In this document: positions 54,458 through 61,473 of the stretch, piece by piece
Layout of the letters: every line of letters begins with the position of its first letter
How positions within the stretch are numbered: the stretch's first letter is position 1
Assembly: GCA_015488335.1 (NCBI GenBank)
Contig: WFNZ01000070.1
Coordinates: 1-61,473, forward strand
Direction: 5' to 3'
Length of the DNA stretch: 61,473 bases
Origin: Thermovibrio sp.
GTDB lineage: Bacteria; Aquificota; Aquificia; Desulfurobacteriales; Desulfurobacteriaceae
Position numbers and translations under genes: made by a program
Notes under the pieces: model-generated
What the model was told of the DNA's origin: nothing
Databases searched by the model: none
The model's input: only the letters and a program-made list of their open reading frames with translations

Positions 54458-55789
54458 ATGATAAGAAAGCTCCTGCTTTTCTCTGCTGTAGCATCTGCCT
54501 TCATACTACCCCAGGCCTCTCTGGCCAAGAGCCGGTGTATTGAATGTCACGAGAAGGTGACACCCGGCATCGTCAAGCAGTTTCTCTCCGGGAAGATGGG
54601 GAAGGCCGGAGTTGACTGCTCTGCCTGTCACGGCAGTGAGCACATGACGTCAACCGACTACAAAAAGGCCAAGTTCCCAACGCCGGACACCTGTAAGAAG
54701 TGCCACCCTGTTCAGGTTCAGCAGTTCAGGGCTGGAAAGCACGACCTTGGCTGGATAGCCTTCAACGCAATGCCTATGGTTACCCACCAGCCAAGGGCAA
54801 TTGTTGGGCCCGGCTACAAGGGATGTTCAGGGTGCCACAAGATTGGGAGGAAGCCCCCAGAGGTCATGGCACACTACAGGTATGGAAACGCACAGTGCGA
54901 TGCCTGCCACACCCGCCACAAGTTTAGTGTTGAAGAGGCCAGGTCTCCAAGGGCCTGTTCAAACTGCCACATGGGATTTGACCACCCTCAGTGGGAGATG
55001 TACGAGTCCTCTAAACACGGGATAATCTGGGACATAGACGGGAGGAAGCCCAACGGGAGAGCTCCCACCTGCCAGTTCTGCCACATGCCGGAGGGAACGC
55101 ACAACGTTGTTACTCCGTGGGGCTTCTTAGCTCTAAGGATTCCGACGAAAGAGAACGTTCTTGCCTTGATTAAAGTTGCTCCTCAGCTTGAGAAACAGCT
55201 CAGGTCTCTGGCCGCTAAACTCCCCTCTGGCCACTACATTGACCTTGACGACGACCCACAGTGGACGTTTGACAGGGCTGTAATCCTTCAGGGAATCGGA
55301 GTCCTTGACGAGAACCTACAGCCGACAGAGAGGCTGGCAGTTGTTTTGAAGGCGAGGGTTGTTAGAGGGCCTGAAGAGTTTAACAAGCTCAGGATGGCAA
55401 TGAAGAAGCGCTGTTACACGTGCCACTCAAAACCTTACATAGACAGCCAGTTCAGGGCAGCAGACGAAGTTGTTAAGGCTGCAGACCACGAGTTTGCAAA
55501 GGCAATACTCACCGTTAAGAAGCTCTACGACGACGGAATACTTAAAAAACCCAAGGGCTGGAAATATGCCCCAGACATACTCCACTTCTACGACTCACCT
55601 TCAGAGCTTGACCAAAAACTCTACCTCATCTTCCTTGAGTACAGACAGAGGGCATTCCAGGGTGCTTTCCACATAAGCAACGACTACATGCACTGGTACG
55701 GCTGGGCTCCGTTAAAAGAGACCGTTGTTGAGATCCAGCAGAAGGCTAAAGAGCTGAGGGAGCTCCACCAGCTTGAGGAAAAAGAGTAG
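54458..55789 (+). CDS. Octaheme c-type cytochrome, HAO-like family
   Basis: A 443-residue periplasmic protein. The signal peptide ends near ASLAK. There are eight CxxCH motifs (CIECH, CSACH, CKKCH, CSGCH, CDACH, CSNCH, CQFCH, CYTCH), the last after a long gap. The C-terminal part FQGAFHISNDYMHWYGWAPL matches the hydroxylamine-oxidoreductase family. In anaerobic ammonifiers such enzymes are proposed to reduce nitrite or hydroxylamine. It is shorter than classical HAO, and no NapC-type donor gene is adjacent. GGAGGGGG precedes the ATG. An FNR-like box lies upstream and a strong palindromic terminator after it. Confidence 0.88.
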   Translation: MIRKLLLFSAVASAFILPQASLAKSRCIECHEKVTPGIVKQFLSGKMGKAGVDCSACHGSEHMTSTDYKKAKFPTPDTCKKCHPVQVQQFRAGKHDLGWIAFNAMPMVTHQPRAIVGPGYKGCSGCHKIGRKPPEVMAHYRYGNAQCDACHTRHKFSVEEARSPRACSNCHMGFDHPQWEMYESSKHGIIWDIDGRKPNGRAPTCQFCHMPEGTHNVVTPWGFLALRIPTKENVLALIKVAPQLEKQLRSLAAKLPSGHYIDLDDDPQWTFDRAVILQGIGVLDENLQPTERLAVVLKARVVRGPEEFNKLRMAMKKRCYTCHSKPYIDSQFRAADEVVKAADHEFAKAILTVKKLYDDGILKKPKGWKYAPDILHFYDSPSELDQKLYLIFLEYRQRAFQGAFHISNDYMHWYGWAPLKETVVEIQQKAKELRELHQLEEKE

Positions 55790-57009: not shown

Positions 57010-58263
57010 ATGCAGAACCGGGCAAGAATCATAATAGGCGACAGCCGTAAAATGGTTGAGCTTGAGGATAGTTCTGTTCAGCTGATAGTAACCTCTCCAC
57101 CCTACTGGCACATAAAAGACTACGGAACAGAGAATCAGATAGGCTACGGCCAGACTCTACACGAGTACCTGAAGGACCTCTACAGGGTCTGGAAGGAGTG
57201 TTACAGAGTTCTGGAGCCCGGGCGAAGACTTGTAATAAATATTGGCGATCAGTTTGCAAGATCTGTAATTTACGGTAGGTATAAAATAATTCCCCTCCAC
57301 GCCGAAGTAATTGCCCAGTGTGAGGAAATAGGCTTTGACTACATGGGTTCCATCATCTGGCAGAAGAAAACGACGATGAACACTACAGGGGGAGCCACCG
57401 TCATGGGCTCCTATCCCTATCCTCCAAACGGAATGGTTGAGATAGATTACGAGCACATTCTTATTTTTAAAAAGCCTGGAAAGAGTAAAAAGGTTCCAAA
57501 AGAGATAAAAGAGAAGTCAAAACTCACTAAAGAGGAGTGGAAAACCTACTTTAGTGGCCACTGGAATTTTGGAGGTGCTCGACAGGTAGGCCACGAGGCG
57601 ATGTTCCCTGAAGAGTTGCCGAGAAGAATAATAAAAATGTTTTCTTTTGTTGGAGAAACGGTTTTAGATCCTTTTTTAGGAAGTGGAACAACTGTAAAAG
57701 TAGCCCTTGAGCTTAATAGAAATGCCGTTGGCTATGAGATAAATGAGAGCTTTGCGGATGTTATTAAAGAAAAAGTAGGAATTAATACATTAATTAACTT
57801 TAATAAAATTGAAATTGTTAGAAGGAAAGAAAACTCACTTAGTTTAGAAGATGTTAACTACTCTTCAAGGATTAAAGATGCAAAGCCTGTTATAGAACCC
57901 AATAAGCTGAAATTTGGCAGGGAGAAGCTTTATAAAGTGAGAAAGGTTCTTGAAGATGGAAGTTTACTTCTTGATACTGGTTTAACTGTGAGTTTTCGTG
58001 GAGTGAAGTTAACTGACCTGAAAAAAGTGAGAGATTACTTGGGTAAATATGTTCTCGGTAAAGAGGTTTATCTTAAGTTTGATAAAGGTTATGTTGCTGA
58101 AAATGAGAATGTAGAGGCTTACGTTTACCTTAAAAACAGGATTTTTATTAATGCTTACCTTATAAAAAATGGTTTAGCTGTTGCTGATAGGGAAAAAGAC
58201 TACGACTTAAAGAGAAGGTTCTTGAATATCAAGTCAACATCTGAGGCGTTGGGATGGAAATAA
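57010..58263 (+). CDS. N4-cytosine DNA methyltransferase with SNase-like C-terminal domain
   Basis: A 417-residue beta-class methyltransferase. The catalytic motif IV VTSPPYWHIKDYG (about 28-40) is of the m4C type (SPPY) and precedes the SAM motif VLDPFLGSGTTVKVA (about 220). Paired with a MjaI-type endonuclease, the target is probably CTAG. Residues about 310-417 align with staphylococcal nuclease (LKFDKG, VEAYVYLKNRIFINAYLIKNG, EALGW). The R35 position seems kept, while the E43 and R87 positions do not, so nuclease activity is unlikely. The AT content rises sharply after about 57620. It begins 2 bases after the preceding gene. Confidence 0.88.
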   Translation: MQNRARIIIGDSRKMVELEDSSVQLIVTSPPYWHIKDYGTENQIGYGQTLHEYLKDLYRVWKECYRVLEPGRRLVINIGDQFARSVIYGRYKIIPLHAEVIAQCEEIGFDYMGSIIWQKKTTMNTTGGATVMGSYPYPPNGMVEIDYEHILIFKKPGKSKKVPKEIKEKSKLTKEEWKTYFSGHWNFGGARQVGHEAMFPEELPRRIIKMFSFVGETVLDPFLGSGTTVKVALELNRNAVGYEINESFADVIKEKVGINTLINFNKIEIVRRKENSLSLEDVNYSSRIKDAKPVIEPNKLKFGREKLYKVRKVLEDGSLLLDTGLTVSFRGVKLTDLKKVRDYLGKYVLGKEVYLKFDKGYVAENENVEAYVYLKNRIFINAYLIKNGLAVADREKDYDLKRRFLNIKSTSEALGWK

Positions 58264-58874
58264 AAACAAAGAATGAAGAAATAAGAGCTCTTCTGGGAAT
58301 AGGAAGTCCTGAATTCCCAAAGTATGTAACCCAGATACTGAATTTGGCCAATCAGAATGCTCAGGCAACCCGTCCAAAAGTTGTGGGGCAGATGAGTGAG
58401 TTAATAAAGGGGTTCAATGGGAAAACTTTAGCGGAATGGGAAAATTGGTACTTAGAGAGATATCCTGAGGCAATAGATAGGGCAACTGAAAAGATTCTCA
58501 ATATGATTGAAAACTTTAAAGAAGCTATTGGGAAGATAGATGAGGATATGGTTAGACGGTGGGTTTGGGATTTAGTAATAGTAAAAACTTTCTTAGGTCT
58601 TAGATTTCAAGAGGCTGTTTTGAGAAAGCTATCAGAGGAGTTTGGTCTGGACTACAGGCTGGCCAGCCCTGAAGAGGAGAAGAAGGGAATAGACGGCTAT
58701 ATAGGGGGTGTGCCGGTTAGTTTAAAGCCAAGATCTTATGACTCTAGGAAACTACTTCCTGAGAAGATAGAAGATTATGTTATTTACTATGAAAAAAAGA
58801 AGGATGGACCCAGGATTTTTATTCCTGAAGATTTAGAGAGCTTGCTAAAAAGAGGCAAAGATAATAAGGAGTAA
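58254..58874 (+). CDS. MjaI-family type II restriction endonuclease
   Basis: A 206-residue protein with the family segments PEFPKYVTQILNLANQNAQ and ATRPKVVGQMSELI. A likely PD-(D/E)xK-type core is GIDGYIGGVPVSLKP (about 143-157). The family cuts CTAG; that specificity is inferred. It overlaps the methyltransferase gene by 10 bases. The gene is AT-rich and has no GGAGCTCC, suggesting later acquisition. Confidence 0.85.
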   Translation: MEIKTKNEEIRALLGIGSPEFPKYVTQILNLANQNAQATRPKVVGQMSELIKGFNGKTLAEWENWYLERYPEAIDRATEKILNMIENFKEAIGKIDEDMVRRWVWDLVIVKTFLGLRFQEAVLRKLSEEFGLDYRLASPEEEKKGIDGYIGGVPVSLKPRSYDSRKLLPEKIEDYVIYYEKKKDGPRIFIPEDLESLLKRGKDNKE

Positions 58875-58896: not shown

Positions 58897-59943
58897 ATGT
58901 CCCTTAAAGACCATCCCATTCTGAAAGCTGCAAGGGGAGAGGAGACCGAATATACACCCATCTGGATAATGAGGCAGGCGGGGAGATATTCTGCCAGATA
59001 CAGGGAGATAAGAGCAAAAGCGGGCTCTTTTATGGATCTGTGCAAAAACCCTCAACTTGCGGCAGAGGTTACACTTATTCCCATTGAGGAGATTGGAGTT
59101 GACGCTGCGATTCTCTTCTCAGATATCCTTGTTCCCGTTGAGAAGATGGGGATAAACGTCTCCTTTGTTGAGGGGAAAGGGCCCGTTCTTGAGCCAAAGG
59201 TTGAGAGTTTAGAAGACGTTGAAAGGTTGAAAGTTCCAGAACCTGAAGAGGATTTGCCCTACGTCCTTGAGACGATTCAGATAATTAAGAAGAGACTTAC
59301 CGATAGACCTTTAATTGGTTTTTCGGGAGCTCCCTTTACACTTGCAAGCTACATGTTAGAAGGGGGGAGCTCCAAAAACTACATAGCTGCCAAGTCAACG
59401 ATGTGGAATAGGCCGCAGCTCTGGGACGCCCTCATGTTAAAGCTTACAGATACGGTTATAGAGTATCTCTCTGCTCAGATAGAAGCAGGAGTTGACCTTG
59501 TTCAGATATTTGACTCCTGGATGGGAGTTCTTTCAAGGGAAGACTACGAGAAATTTGTTTTCCCCTACACTGAGAAAATTGTAAATGAGTTAAAGAAACG
59601 GCATCCTGAAACGCCTATAATCCACTTCGGCGTAAACGCCGGCCACCTTTTAGAGGTGAACAACCGGCTTAACGTAGATGTTTTGGGGCTTGACTGGAAA
59701 ACGGAAATTCCCTTTGCCCTTGAGAGAGTTGACAAGTCTATACAGGGGAACCTTGACCCTGTGGCTCTCTTTGCAGATGAGAAGACCATTGAAGCGAAAG
59801 TGAGAAAGATATTGGAAGAGGGAATGAGAGCGAGAGGACACATCTTTAACTTGGGGCACGGCATCCTTCCACAAACAGACCCGAAGAAAGCCAAATTCTT
59901 AGTTGATACAGTTCACAGGATAAGCAGGGAGCTCCGCAGATGA
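58897..59943 (+). CDS. hemE: Uroporphyrinogen decarboxylase
   Basis: A 348-residue cytoplasmic enzyme making coproporphyrinogen III. It has PIWIMRQAGRYSARYREIR, the catalytic Asp region ILFSDILVP, GFSGAPFTLASYMLEGG and INLGHGILP-like FNLGHGILPQTDP. ATG 58897 follows GGAGGATGTA. It serves heme synthesis for the cytochromes in this region and is separated from the AhbD-like gene by the RM pair. Confidence 0.97.
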   Translation: MSLKDHPILKAARGEETEYTPIWIMRQAGRYSARYREIRAKAGSFMDLCKNPQLAAEVTLIPIEEIGVDAAILFSDILVPVEKMGINVSFVEGKGPVLEPKVESLEDVERLKVPEPEEDLPYVLETIQIIKKRLTDRPLIGFSGAPFTLASYMLEGGSSKNYIAAKSTMWNRPQLWDALMLKLTDTVIEYLSAQIEAGVDLVQIFDSWMGVLSREDYEKFVFPYTEKIVNELKKRHPETPIIHFGVNAGHLLEVNNRLNVDVLGLDWKTEIPFALERVDKSIQGNLDPVALFADEKTIEAKVRKILEEGMRARGHIFNLGHGILPQTDPKKAKFLVDTVHRISRELRR

Positions 59944-60809
59944 AAAAGAGAGTTGCTCTGGCCGTGGTTCTTTTCACTGCGGCCCTCATTTCTGCCTACT
60001 TTGCCCTTGAGTCCTTCGCCAACGTTAAACTGAAGGAGAAGTTTGATAGGCGTCTCTCAAAGCTTCCCTACGCTACCTCTTACTCCCGCTTTCACTACAG
60101 CCTCGGACCAAACGACGTTGAGATAGACGGTTTGAGTATGAAAGGGAATCTATTTTCCCTTCAAGCCCAAAAGCTCCTGATAGATTTACCCTACAACTTC
60201 AGAGAGAAACGTTTTCCGCCCTTTCTGAAGGTTGTTGTAAGAAACGGATACTTCCGGCTGGAGCTCCCTCTCCTTGACGAACTCTTAGGCAGGTCAAGTT
60301 TTGGCTTTGACCTTGCCGGCTGGTATGACTTTGAGGGAAATAGACTTGACGCGTTTTTCTTCTTAAACCTGAAAAGTCTGGGAAGCCTTTCCTTTAAGGC
60401 CGATATAGATAACCTTGATTACCCAACCGTAGAAAGGTTCTTTGAGGGAAGAACCACCGTCAATCCGATTTTGAGGAAGGGAGAGCTCTCCCACCTTGAA
60501 ATGGTTTTCAAGAACGACGGCTTTTACGATACTTTTCTCAGATATGCCGCAAAACAGGAGGGAACCACGCCTGAGAATATCAGAAAAGAACTCCTTTCAA
60601 TGATAAAACAGAGTTTTCAGGATGAAACTCTCTACACCAGAATAGGGAAACCTTTAGAGGAGTTTATAAACAATCCTACGTGCTTAAAATTTGAGTTTAA
60701 CCCACCTCACCCTGTAAGCCTTCGGGAGTTGGAAAAGCTGGTTTCTTCCAAGCCGAACGTTAAAAGAGTTGTTGAAGAGCTTGGATTAAAACTTTCCCTT
60801 TGTGGTTAA
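59940..60809 (+). CDS. Membrane-anchored hypothetical protein
   Basis: A 289-residue protein with an N-terminal helix (VALAVVLFTAALISAYFAL) as signal or anchor. A beta-rich periplasmic part follows. The style (long beta strands, amphipathic segments such as DVEIDGLSMKGNLFSLQAQK) recalls AsmA-like or DUF945-like proteins, but I cannot assign it. Its ATG overlaps the hemE stop by 4 bases. Confidence 0.65.
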   Translation: MKKRVALAVVLFTAALISAYFALESFANVKLKEKFDRRLSKLPYATSYSRFHYSLGPNDVEIDGLSMKGNLFSLQAQKLLIDLPYNFREKRFPPFLKVVVRNGYFRLELPLLDELLGRSSFGFDLAGWYDFEGNRLDAFFFLNLKSLGSLSFKADIDNLDYPTVERFFEGRTTVNPILRKGELSHLEMVFKNDGFYDTFLRYAAKQEGTTPENIRKELLSMIKQSFQDETLYTRIGKPLEEFINNPTCLKFEFNPPHPVSLRELEKLVSSKPNVKRVVEELGLKLSLCG

Positions 60810-61402
60810 CGGGAGTTCTTCCTTGCTTTGACCCTTTTCTTCATTTCTTCTAAAGGAATCGGCTTTGCCTCTATACTCTTTGCCGGGCAGATGTTTCCAC
60901 AGTGCCCACAGCCGGAACAAATTTCAGGGAACTCCGGAATAACGTTTCCGTTTTCGTCCAATCCTCTGGTTTCACACAGTTCTAAGCATTTTTCACAGTT
61001 CTGGCATTTACTGTGGTCAATCTCCTGTAAGTAGGTGGGAGTATAGAGTATTCCTCCCAGTGTTAGGTAGGCATAGTTTCCGTTTTCATCGGAGAGGAGT
61101 TCCTCTTCGTTTACCTCCATTTCCTCCGAACCGGAGGAGCAGTTTATGCCTCAGAGGAAAGCATCTTCGGGGCAGACAATCTTACAGAAGCCATCTCCTA
61201 TACAGAGTTCGGGTTTGGTTATTATTGCAACTGTTTTTCCGTTTATCCCTTTAAGTTCAATACAGTTCTGTGGGCATATTTCAACACACTCACCGCAGCC
61301 TGTACACTTCAGGACGTTTATTCCACCGGGGTACTGGGGAATGAACGGTGAACCGTCTTGAGTTAAAATCACTTGGGTTTTGACTTCAACAGGTGCTTTC
61401 AT
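60806..61402 (-). CDS. Four-cluster ferredoxin with in-frame UGA, candidate selenoprotein
   Basis: Read as one gene with UGA (61153-61151) as a sense codon, the product has 198 residues. The first part (83 residues, ATG 61402, AAAGGTG upstream) has CTGCGECVEICP and CIGDGFCKIVCP, the latter with Asp where Cys is usual. The second part has CQNCEKCLELC and CSGCGHCGNICP. The frame is unbroken from the UGA to the next ATG at 61120, whose GGAGG is only 2 bases away, a poor spacing for independent starts. A SECIS-like hairpin follows the UGA. Alternatives are two separate ferredoxin genes, or a nonsense mutation. Confidence 0.6.
61122..61138 (-). promoter_or_regulatory. SECIS-like hairpin
   Basis: Minus strand TCCTCCG-GTT-CGGAGGA: a 7-bp stem with a 3-base loop beginning with G. 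The loop lies 19 bases after the UGA. This agrees with the published bacterial SECIS pattern (loop 16-37 bases after UGA, G among the first two loop bases). Confidence 0.5.
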
Positions 61403-61439
61403 GATTTCACCTTTCGCATTATCTGAAAGATCTCAGCTT

Positions 61440-61468
61440 ATTTTATATCTATAATCAATTTATTCCAA
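61440..61468 (-). promoter_or_regulatory. Promoter of the UGA-containing ferredoxin gene
   Basis: Minus strand TTGGAA (61468-61463), a 17-base spacer and TAAAAT (61445-61440), about 38 bases upstream of ATG 61402. Confidence 0.6.
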
Positions 61469-61473
61469 GATGC

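Follow-up and report, generated by a model that had tools for sequence, protein, structure and literature searches.

A probable ferredoxin-type selenoprotein family with two FdxB-like halves in the Desulfurobacteriaceae

Results

The locus and its predicted product

The DNA analysed here (the window, a stretch of 61,473 nucleotides from a Thermovibrio sp. contig) carries near its end, on the minus strand, an 83-codon open reading frame (61402..61154) which runs into a UGA codon (61153..61151) and is followed by ten sense codons and then by an ATG at position 61120, from which a second reading frame of 104 codons extends to a TAA (60808..60806). Both reading frames, the UGA and the ten-codon gap share a single frame. 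The layout recorded in the preliminary description of this DNA, namely two ferredoxin-like reading frames in the same frame with one UGA and ten sense codons between them, holds base for base, as do the Shine-Dalgarno sequence that it placed 2 bases from the downstream ATG (GGAGG, 2 nt 5' of the ATG in the window's own copy) and the AFL-Sec-GINC context that it gave for the UGA (CIGDGFCKIVCPEDAFL-U-GINC). If the UGA at codon 84 is read as selenocysteine (Sec84), the interval 60806..61402 becomes a single gene of 198 codons plus TAA, with a read-through product of 198 amino acids and 21.6 kDa.

This product would be a ferredoxin composed of two FdxB-like dicluster halves. The first (residues 1-83, 61154..61402), which is also what would be made if the UGA terminated translation, matches TIGR02936 over residues 12-82 and gives fdxB hits; the second, which starts at about residue 109 (NYAYLT...) and makes up the remainder of the protein (60806..61078), is identified by profile comparison with the first (probability 96%, E 3e-9, 33% identity), the lead-in before the first Cys included. 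The first half contains Cys motif 1 (C33-x2-C36-x2-C39-x3-C43-P-x2-C47, 61262..61306), which is invariant in the alignment of homologues described below except that C47 is a UGA in one copy (L042), and Cys motif 2 (C67-IG-D70-G-x-C73-x3-C77, 61172..61204), in which Asp70 replaces the second Cys and which is invariant in 19/19 copies. Motif 3 (C133-x2-C136-x2-C139-x3-C143, 60974..61006) and motif 4 (C162-x2-C165-x2-C168-x3-C172, 60887..60919) lie in the second half. At the junction of the first half and the linker stands Sec84-x3-Cys88 (UxxxC; Cys88, four residues past Sec84, at 61139..61141), and across the 19 copies both of these residues are invariant and the first residues of the linker are conserved.

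An Asp at the place of the second Cys occurs in ferredoxins whose cluster is labile, is of the [3Fe-4S] type or is an Asp-ligated [4Fe-4S] cluster. The earlier label of a four-cluster ferredoxin is thus borne out as regards the number of cluster motifs, which is four, and needs qualification in that motif 2 has an invariant Asp where its second Cys would be; we infer from the motifs that the protein likely holds four clusters, one of which may be unusual. The AlphaFold2 model (mean pLDDT 68) is good for the first half only, and linker residues 89-93 fall below 50; use of the model to measure distances from Sec84 to the clusters was rejected, the linker being weakly predicted. The solved folds nearest to the model are the ferredoxin parts of HdrA and FwdF and 7Fe ferredoxins.

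Conservation of the UGA codon among homologues

A search of 136 Aquificota genomes yielded 19 copies of the gene; the 18 genomes that carry them belong to six genera, all within the Desulfurobacteriaceae, and the copies match the query over its full length at 62-92% identity. When one genome per species was scanned, nine loci came up, every one in the same family; five weak Enterococcus matches in that scan are generic ferredoxins. A profile search added no member to the 19 copies, the viral contigs searched contained no relative, and the plasmids searched gave only FdxB matches of about 30% identity, to ferredoxins annotated fdxB in Rhizobium/Sinorhizobium. Four genomes of one Desulfurobacteriaceae genus (designated g3) lack the gene, as do all other searched Aquificota. 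The g3 genomes retain the gene order hisH - rlmB - unknown - kinase - regulator, with a leuC-like gene directly after the regulator (the names being readings of the translations), and since this order is intact around the missing site, the absence in g3 is real rather than an assembly gap.

The UGA occupies the identical codon in 19/19 copies, within AFL-U-G in most of them and within AFT-U-G, AFI-U-G and AFL-U-KSG in single copies; Cys, TAA or TAG was found at this codon in 0/19. The codon recurs in 18 separately assembled genomes, which removes the concern that resequencing might erase it. The Cys that an alignment of relatives had been expected to reveal at this position did not appear: no Cys homologue was found in the 136 Aquificota genomes, in the one-genome-per-species contig scan or in distant phyla, the last of which were covered by single-sequence patterns only. 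In pairwise comparisons of the 19 copies, synonymous sites are near saturation on both sides of the UGA (mean pS about 0.77) and mean pN is 0.15 before it and 0.19 after it, values which indicate that the protein on both sides of the UGA is under strong purifying selection.

These data bear directly on the simplest alternative, that the locus holds two neighbouring genes of the usual kind, the first for a short ferredoxin terminated by the UGA, the second translationally coupled to it and begun at the downstream ATG. The GGAGG 2 nt before that ATG in the window's genome is what such an arrangement would call for, and either half by itself gives matches to ferredoxin families. The downstream ATG, however, is not conserved, and in 7/19 copies no ATG, GTG or TTG occurs in the 39 codons that follow the UGA, which in those genomes bars the second half from being made as a separate, normally started protein; homologues are therefore not always two separate proteins, the outcome that the preliminary description had named as counting against Sec, and the copies without a start codon largely refute the two-gene arrangement. 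The fixation of UGA in all 19 copies argues in the same direction: neighbouring genes end in TGA in 68/170 cases (40%), and such uniformity is unexpected for a plain stop even when shared ancestry is allowed for. The conservation of Cys88 and of the first residues of the linker likewise speaks against a terminus at this point, and we regard the two-gene explanation as very improbable.

One genome (G121) contains a second copy of the gene (L042, G121:C129:3579-4151) with an extra in-frame UGA at its codon 49, which falls exactly on an otherwise invariant cluster Cys (CPQRUIEL). No SECIS-like hairpin was seen after this second UGA, which may reflect a sequencing error, a duplicate in the first stages of decay, or a second Sec.

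The hairpin downstream of the UGA

The 7-bp hairpin with a GTT loop that had been noted 12 bases after the UGA, with its loop at 19 bases, is present in the window copy (TCCTCCG-GTT-CGGAGGA, 61122..61138, minus strand): it starts 12 nt past the UGA and 19 nt precede the GTT loop, or, if the last pair is open, it forms a 6-bp stem with the loop GGTTC. It resembles a bacterial SECIS element in lying immediately downstream, in having a G within the first two loop bases and in its distance from the UGA. An RG loop ([A/G]G[U/G]..) begins 18 nt after the UGA in 16/19 copies and 15 nt after it in the three copies which carry a codon deletion, so that the hairpin has been kept though the spacing has changed.

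The 39 nt after the UGA are more stable than 95% of synonymous recodings (P<0.05) in 14/19 copies, and the folding energy of this segment falls below the shuffle mean in 19/19. Taken with the UGA found in 19/19 copies, these stabilities put the arrangement well outside what chance would produce. Synonymous change also drops over the 12 codons after the UGA, to a pS of 0.51. In the alignment of the stem, both partners of two pairs differ between copies (C-G/U-A and A-U/G-C) while the four inner pairs never vary, and paired cells amount to 88% for the hairpin vs at most 66% for slid structures; the covariation support is thin, resting on two pairs. When folded as isolated RNA, some copies, that of the window included, prefer another lowest-energy structure.

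The SECIS elements of other selenoprotein genes in these bacteria provide a natural comparison. In the selD genes of the carrier genomes, and in the fdhA gene of one genome (G122), the distance from the UGA to a GGUC loop is 17-18 nt, and the hairpin studied here is like the SelD element of the same genomes in both spacing and loop type. A covariance model built from the hairpin found only its own gene in the genome (other matches had E ~0.9 or worse) and does not recognise the SelD SECIS, and for that reason it cannot be used to list further selenoproteins. An Rfam scan of the window and of the selA locus gave no match.

Selenocysteine machinery and the decoding of codon 84

The genome carries all four genes that the preliminary description proposed to search for, selA, selB, selC (tRNA-Sec, with a UCA anticodon) and selD, so a lack of Sec genes, which would have spoken against Sec decoding, does not apply. 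The selD gene has its own in-frame UGA in 11/11 genomes tested. An in-frame UGA in FdhA was found in only 2/11 Desulfurobacteriaceae genomes tested; judged from these sequences, FdhA-like proteins of the family differ in whether they use Sec. One of the FdhA genes concerned is in G122 (L083, G122:C1:1333532-1335229) and a UGA-containing match is also present in G119, and the best FdhA matches of the window's own genome have no internal stop.

The constancy of the UGA in all 19 copies, the constraint on both sides of it, the SelD-like hairpin, the Sec machinery and the copies without a second start together argue that the UGA at codon 84 is very probably read as selenocysteine and that the locus is one gene for one selenoprotein. 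SelB and Sec-tRNA-Sec would read the codon, and the hairpin just downstream would direct this decoding as a bacterial SECIS element; we infer that the full-length selenoferredoxin is made in cells. That readthrough of the UGA instead inserts Trp or some other near-cognate amino acid, or that the gene is a decaying pseudogene, is highly unlikely: UGA readthrough does exist in bacteria and the second UGA of L042 lacks a SECIS-like hairpin, but the Sec machinery is complete, the hairpin is positioned as in SelD, an invariant Cys follows four residues on and purifying selection is strong on both sides of the codon.

Genomic neighbourhood and regulation

An NtrB-like kinase and an NtrC-like regulator lie upstream of the gene in every genome with readable upstream DNA, the regulator alone being visible where the contig ends. 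In the window's own genome this pair is on contig C35, the last 70 bp of which (G000:C35) overlap the end of the window (61404-61473), and the two contigs probably join at this 70-bp overlap. A candidate promoter (61440..61468, minus strand), composed of TTGGAA (61468-61463) and TATAAAAT (61447-61440) with 15-nt spacing, is separate and lies between the regulator and the selenoferredoxin gene; no convincing sigma-54 -24/-12 promoter was found upstream of the gene. Upstream of the candidate promoter, outside the window on contig C35, is the palindrome TTGACAGAAATCAA. Its pattern, TTGAY-N4-RTCAA, which we take to be a form of the FNR/CRP-family site, is exact in 10/18 copies with upstream sequence from their own locus (11/19 when the window's genome is added through C35), lies 79-100 nt before the start codon and is lost or degenerate in the remaining copies. 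This putative FNR/CRP-type site suggests redox or nitrogen-oxide control of the gene.

Downstream are a hemE-like gene and others. A convergent 289-aa protein on the plus strand (59940-60809), with no Pfam or NCBIfam match, overlaps the ferredoxin stop by 4 bp; in most genomes it is the neighbour of the selenoferredoxin. A conserved protein of ~133 aa (L053:4227-4628 and orthologues), also without a Pfam or NCBIfam match and present in g3 too, is encoded between rlmB and the kinase. The same neighbourhood of the window includes a multihaem cytochrome c (54458-55789) that matches the seven-haem Pfam model Multi-haem_cyto, and a putative DNA methyltransferase with a TSPPYW motif, after which comes a small reading frame that overlaps it. 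These two (57010-58874), perhaps a restriction-modification pair, separate genes which in L053 are direct neighbours.

Discussion

Comparison with known families

The best curated match of the query, and a match of 19/19 copies, is FdxB, the nif-specific ferredoxin III (TIGR02936), the two having in common the dicluster core and the stretch that leads up to the first Cys; the score of 68.6 bits is under the cut-off of 80.55, and the query is unlike FdxB in having two halves rather than one, a Sec-bearing linker and an Asp in motif 2. A link to nitrogenase through FdxB was considered and rejected, since none of the carrier genomes tested has a nifH above cut-off, the only genome with one being G123, which does not have the selenoferredoxin gene.

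Two ferredoxin-type selenoproteins on record are distant matches. The selenoprotein form of HgcB (NF040864; PMC13188914) is matched at 40.4 bits, far under its cut-off of 99; it carries Sec in a GVGU motif, whereas the query has it in AFL-U-GINC between two ferredoxin halves, and hgcA was not found next to the selenoferredoxin gene, where the neighbours are the NtrB/NtrC-like pair, the hemE-like gene and others. NF005503, the Fe-S cluster domain-containing selenoprotein, is like the query a ferredoxin-domain selenoprotein predicted from sequence (PMC13188914), but the match scores 26.6 bits where the cut-off is 252, and its Sec lies in UxxC rather than UxxxC. The polyferredoxin domains of HdrA (heterodisulfide reductase) and FwdF (formylmethanofuran dehydrogenase) are among the closest PDB folds and sequences; they share only the generic ferredoxin part with the query, and the position of Sec differs (HdrA can be a selenoprotein, with CxxU; PMC13188914). 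The selenoprotein ferredoxin-thioredoxin reductase, in which a Sec redox centre (CxU) is fed by an Fe-S cluster (PMC2398784, PMC13188914), offers a mechanistic analogy only, as it was not a homologue in any search here.

The 2026 inventory comprises 119 prokaryotic selenoprotein families, its ferredoxin-type entries being HgcB, NF005503 and, more loosely, HdrA (PMC13188914). The selenoferredoxin fits no entry of that inventory (PMC13188914) and no curated family above cut-off. Early surveys list only two Aquificae selenoproteins (PMC1794560), and FdhA and SelD are the selenoproteins of Aquifex (PMC1242214). The main texts of deep-Sep and of the 2016 survey make no mention of ferredoxin or of this lineage, and a text search of the literature for selenoprotein or selenocysteine together with the lineage found no description, supplements being outside its scope and a prior mention possible. 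On the evidence of sequence comparison, the selenoferredoxin would be a new family within a known kind, the bacterial selenoproteins, and not a new kind of system.

Possible function

The leading guess at function, which we hold only tentatively, is an anaerobically regulated electron carrier with a Sec/Cys redox centre. The clusters, whose content is predicted from the Cys motifs, would pass electrons singly to a Sec84-Cys88 selenenylsulfide centre, and this centre would carry out two-electron thiol/disulfide or (poly)sulfide chemistry or hand the electrons to a partner. The redox role of Sec84 is proposed from just the UxxxC arrangement and its position.

A somewhat unlikely but serious alternative is that Sec binds a metal or ligates an Fe-S cluster, for example that of the Asp70 motif, with no selenenylsulfide being formed. 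In its favour, the Asp that stands for a cluster Cys is invariant, and ferredoxin-domain selenoproteins with proposed metal roles, such as HgcB, are on record (PMC13188914); the distance of seven residues between Cys77 and Sec84 is, however, not a standard one for ligands, the invariance of Cys88 points to its pairing with Sec84, and the structure model gives no reliable geometry from which such ligation could be argued. There is a slim chance that the UGA acts as a selenium switch, whereby low selenium would give the 83-residue dicluster ferredoxin and selenium the four-cluster form. The first half does end exactly where the UGA falls, and by itself it fits two-cluster models, but the stability and use of the short form are purely hypothetical and the invariance of Sec84 and Cys88 suggests a chemical role.

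The most far-reaching reading, which we consider distinctly improbable, is a new redox architecture in which two fused ferredoxin domains are joined through Sec-x3-Cys beside an Asp-for-Cys cluster, one-electron transfer would be converted to two-electron selenol chemistry, and selenium supply would decide between a two-cluster and a four-cluster protein.

Significance

The selenoferredoxin adds to a deep-branching lineage a probable selenoprotein family that is in neither the curated libraries nor the 2026 inventory, and its gene is one that gene finders will split or truncate. It raises the biochemical question of what role selenium plays between two ferredoxin domains. The hosts are deep-sea-vent bacteria of the family Desulfurobacteriaceae, and because FdhA has the in-frame UGA in so few of the genomes tested while the selenoferredoxin has it everywhere the gene occurs, this gene may help to explain the persistence of the Sec trait among them.
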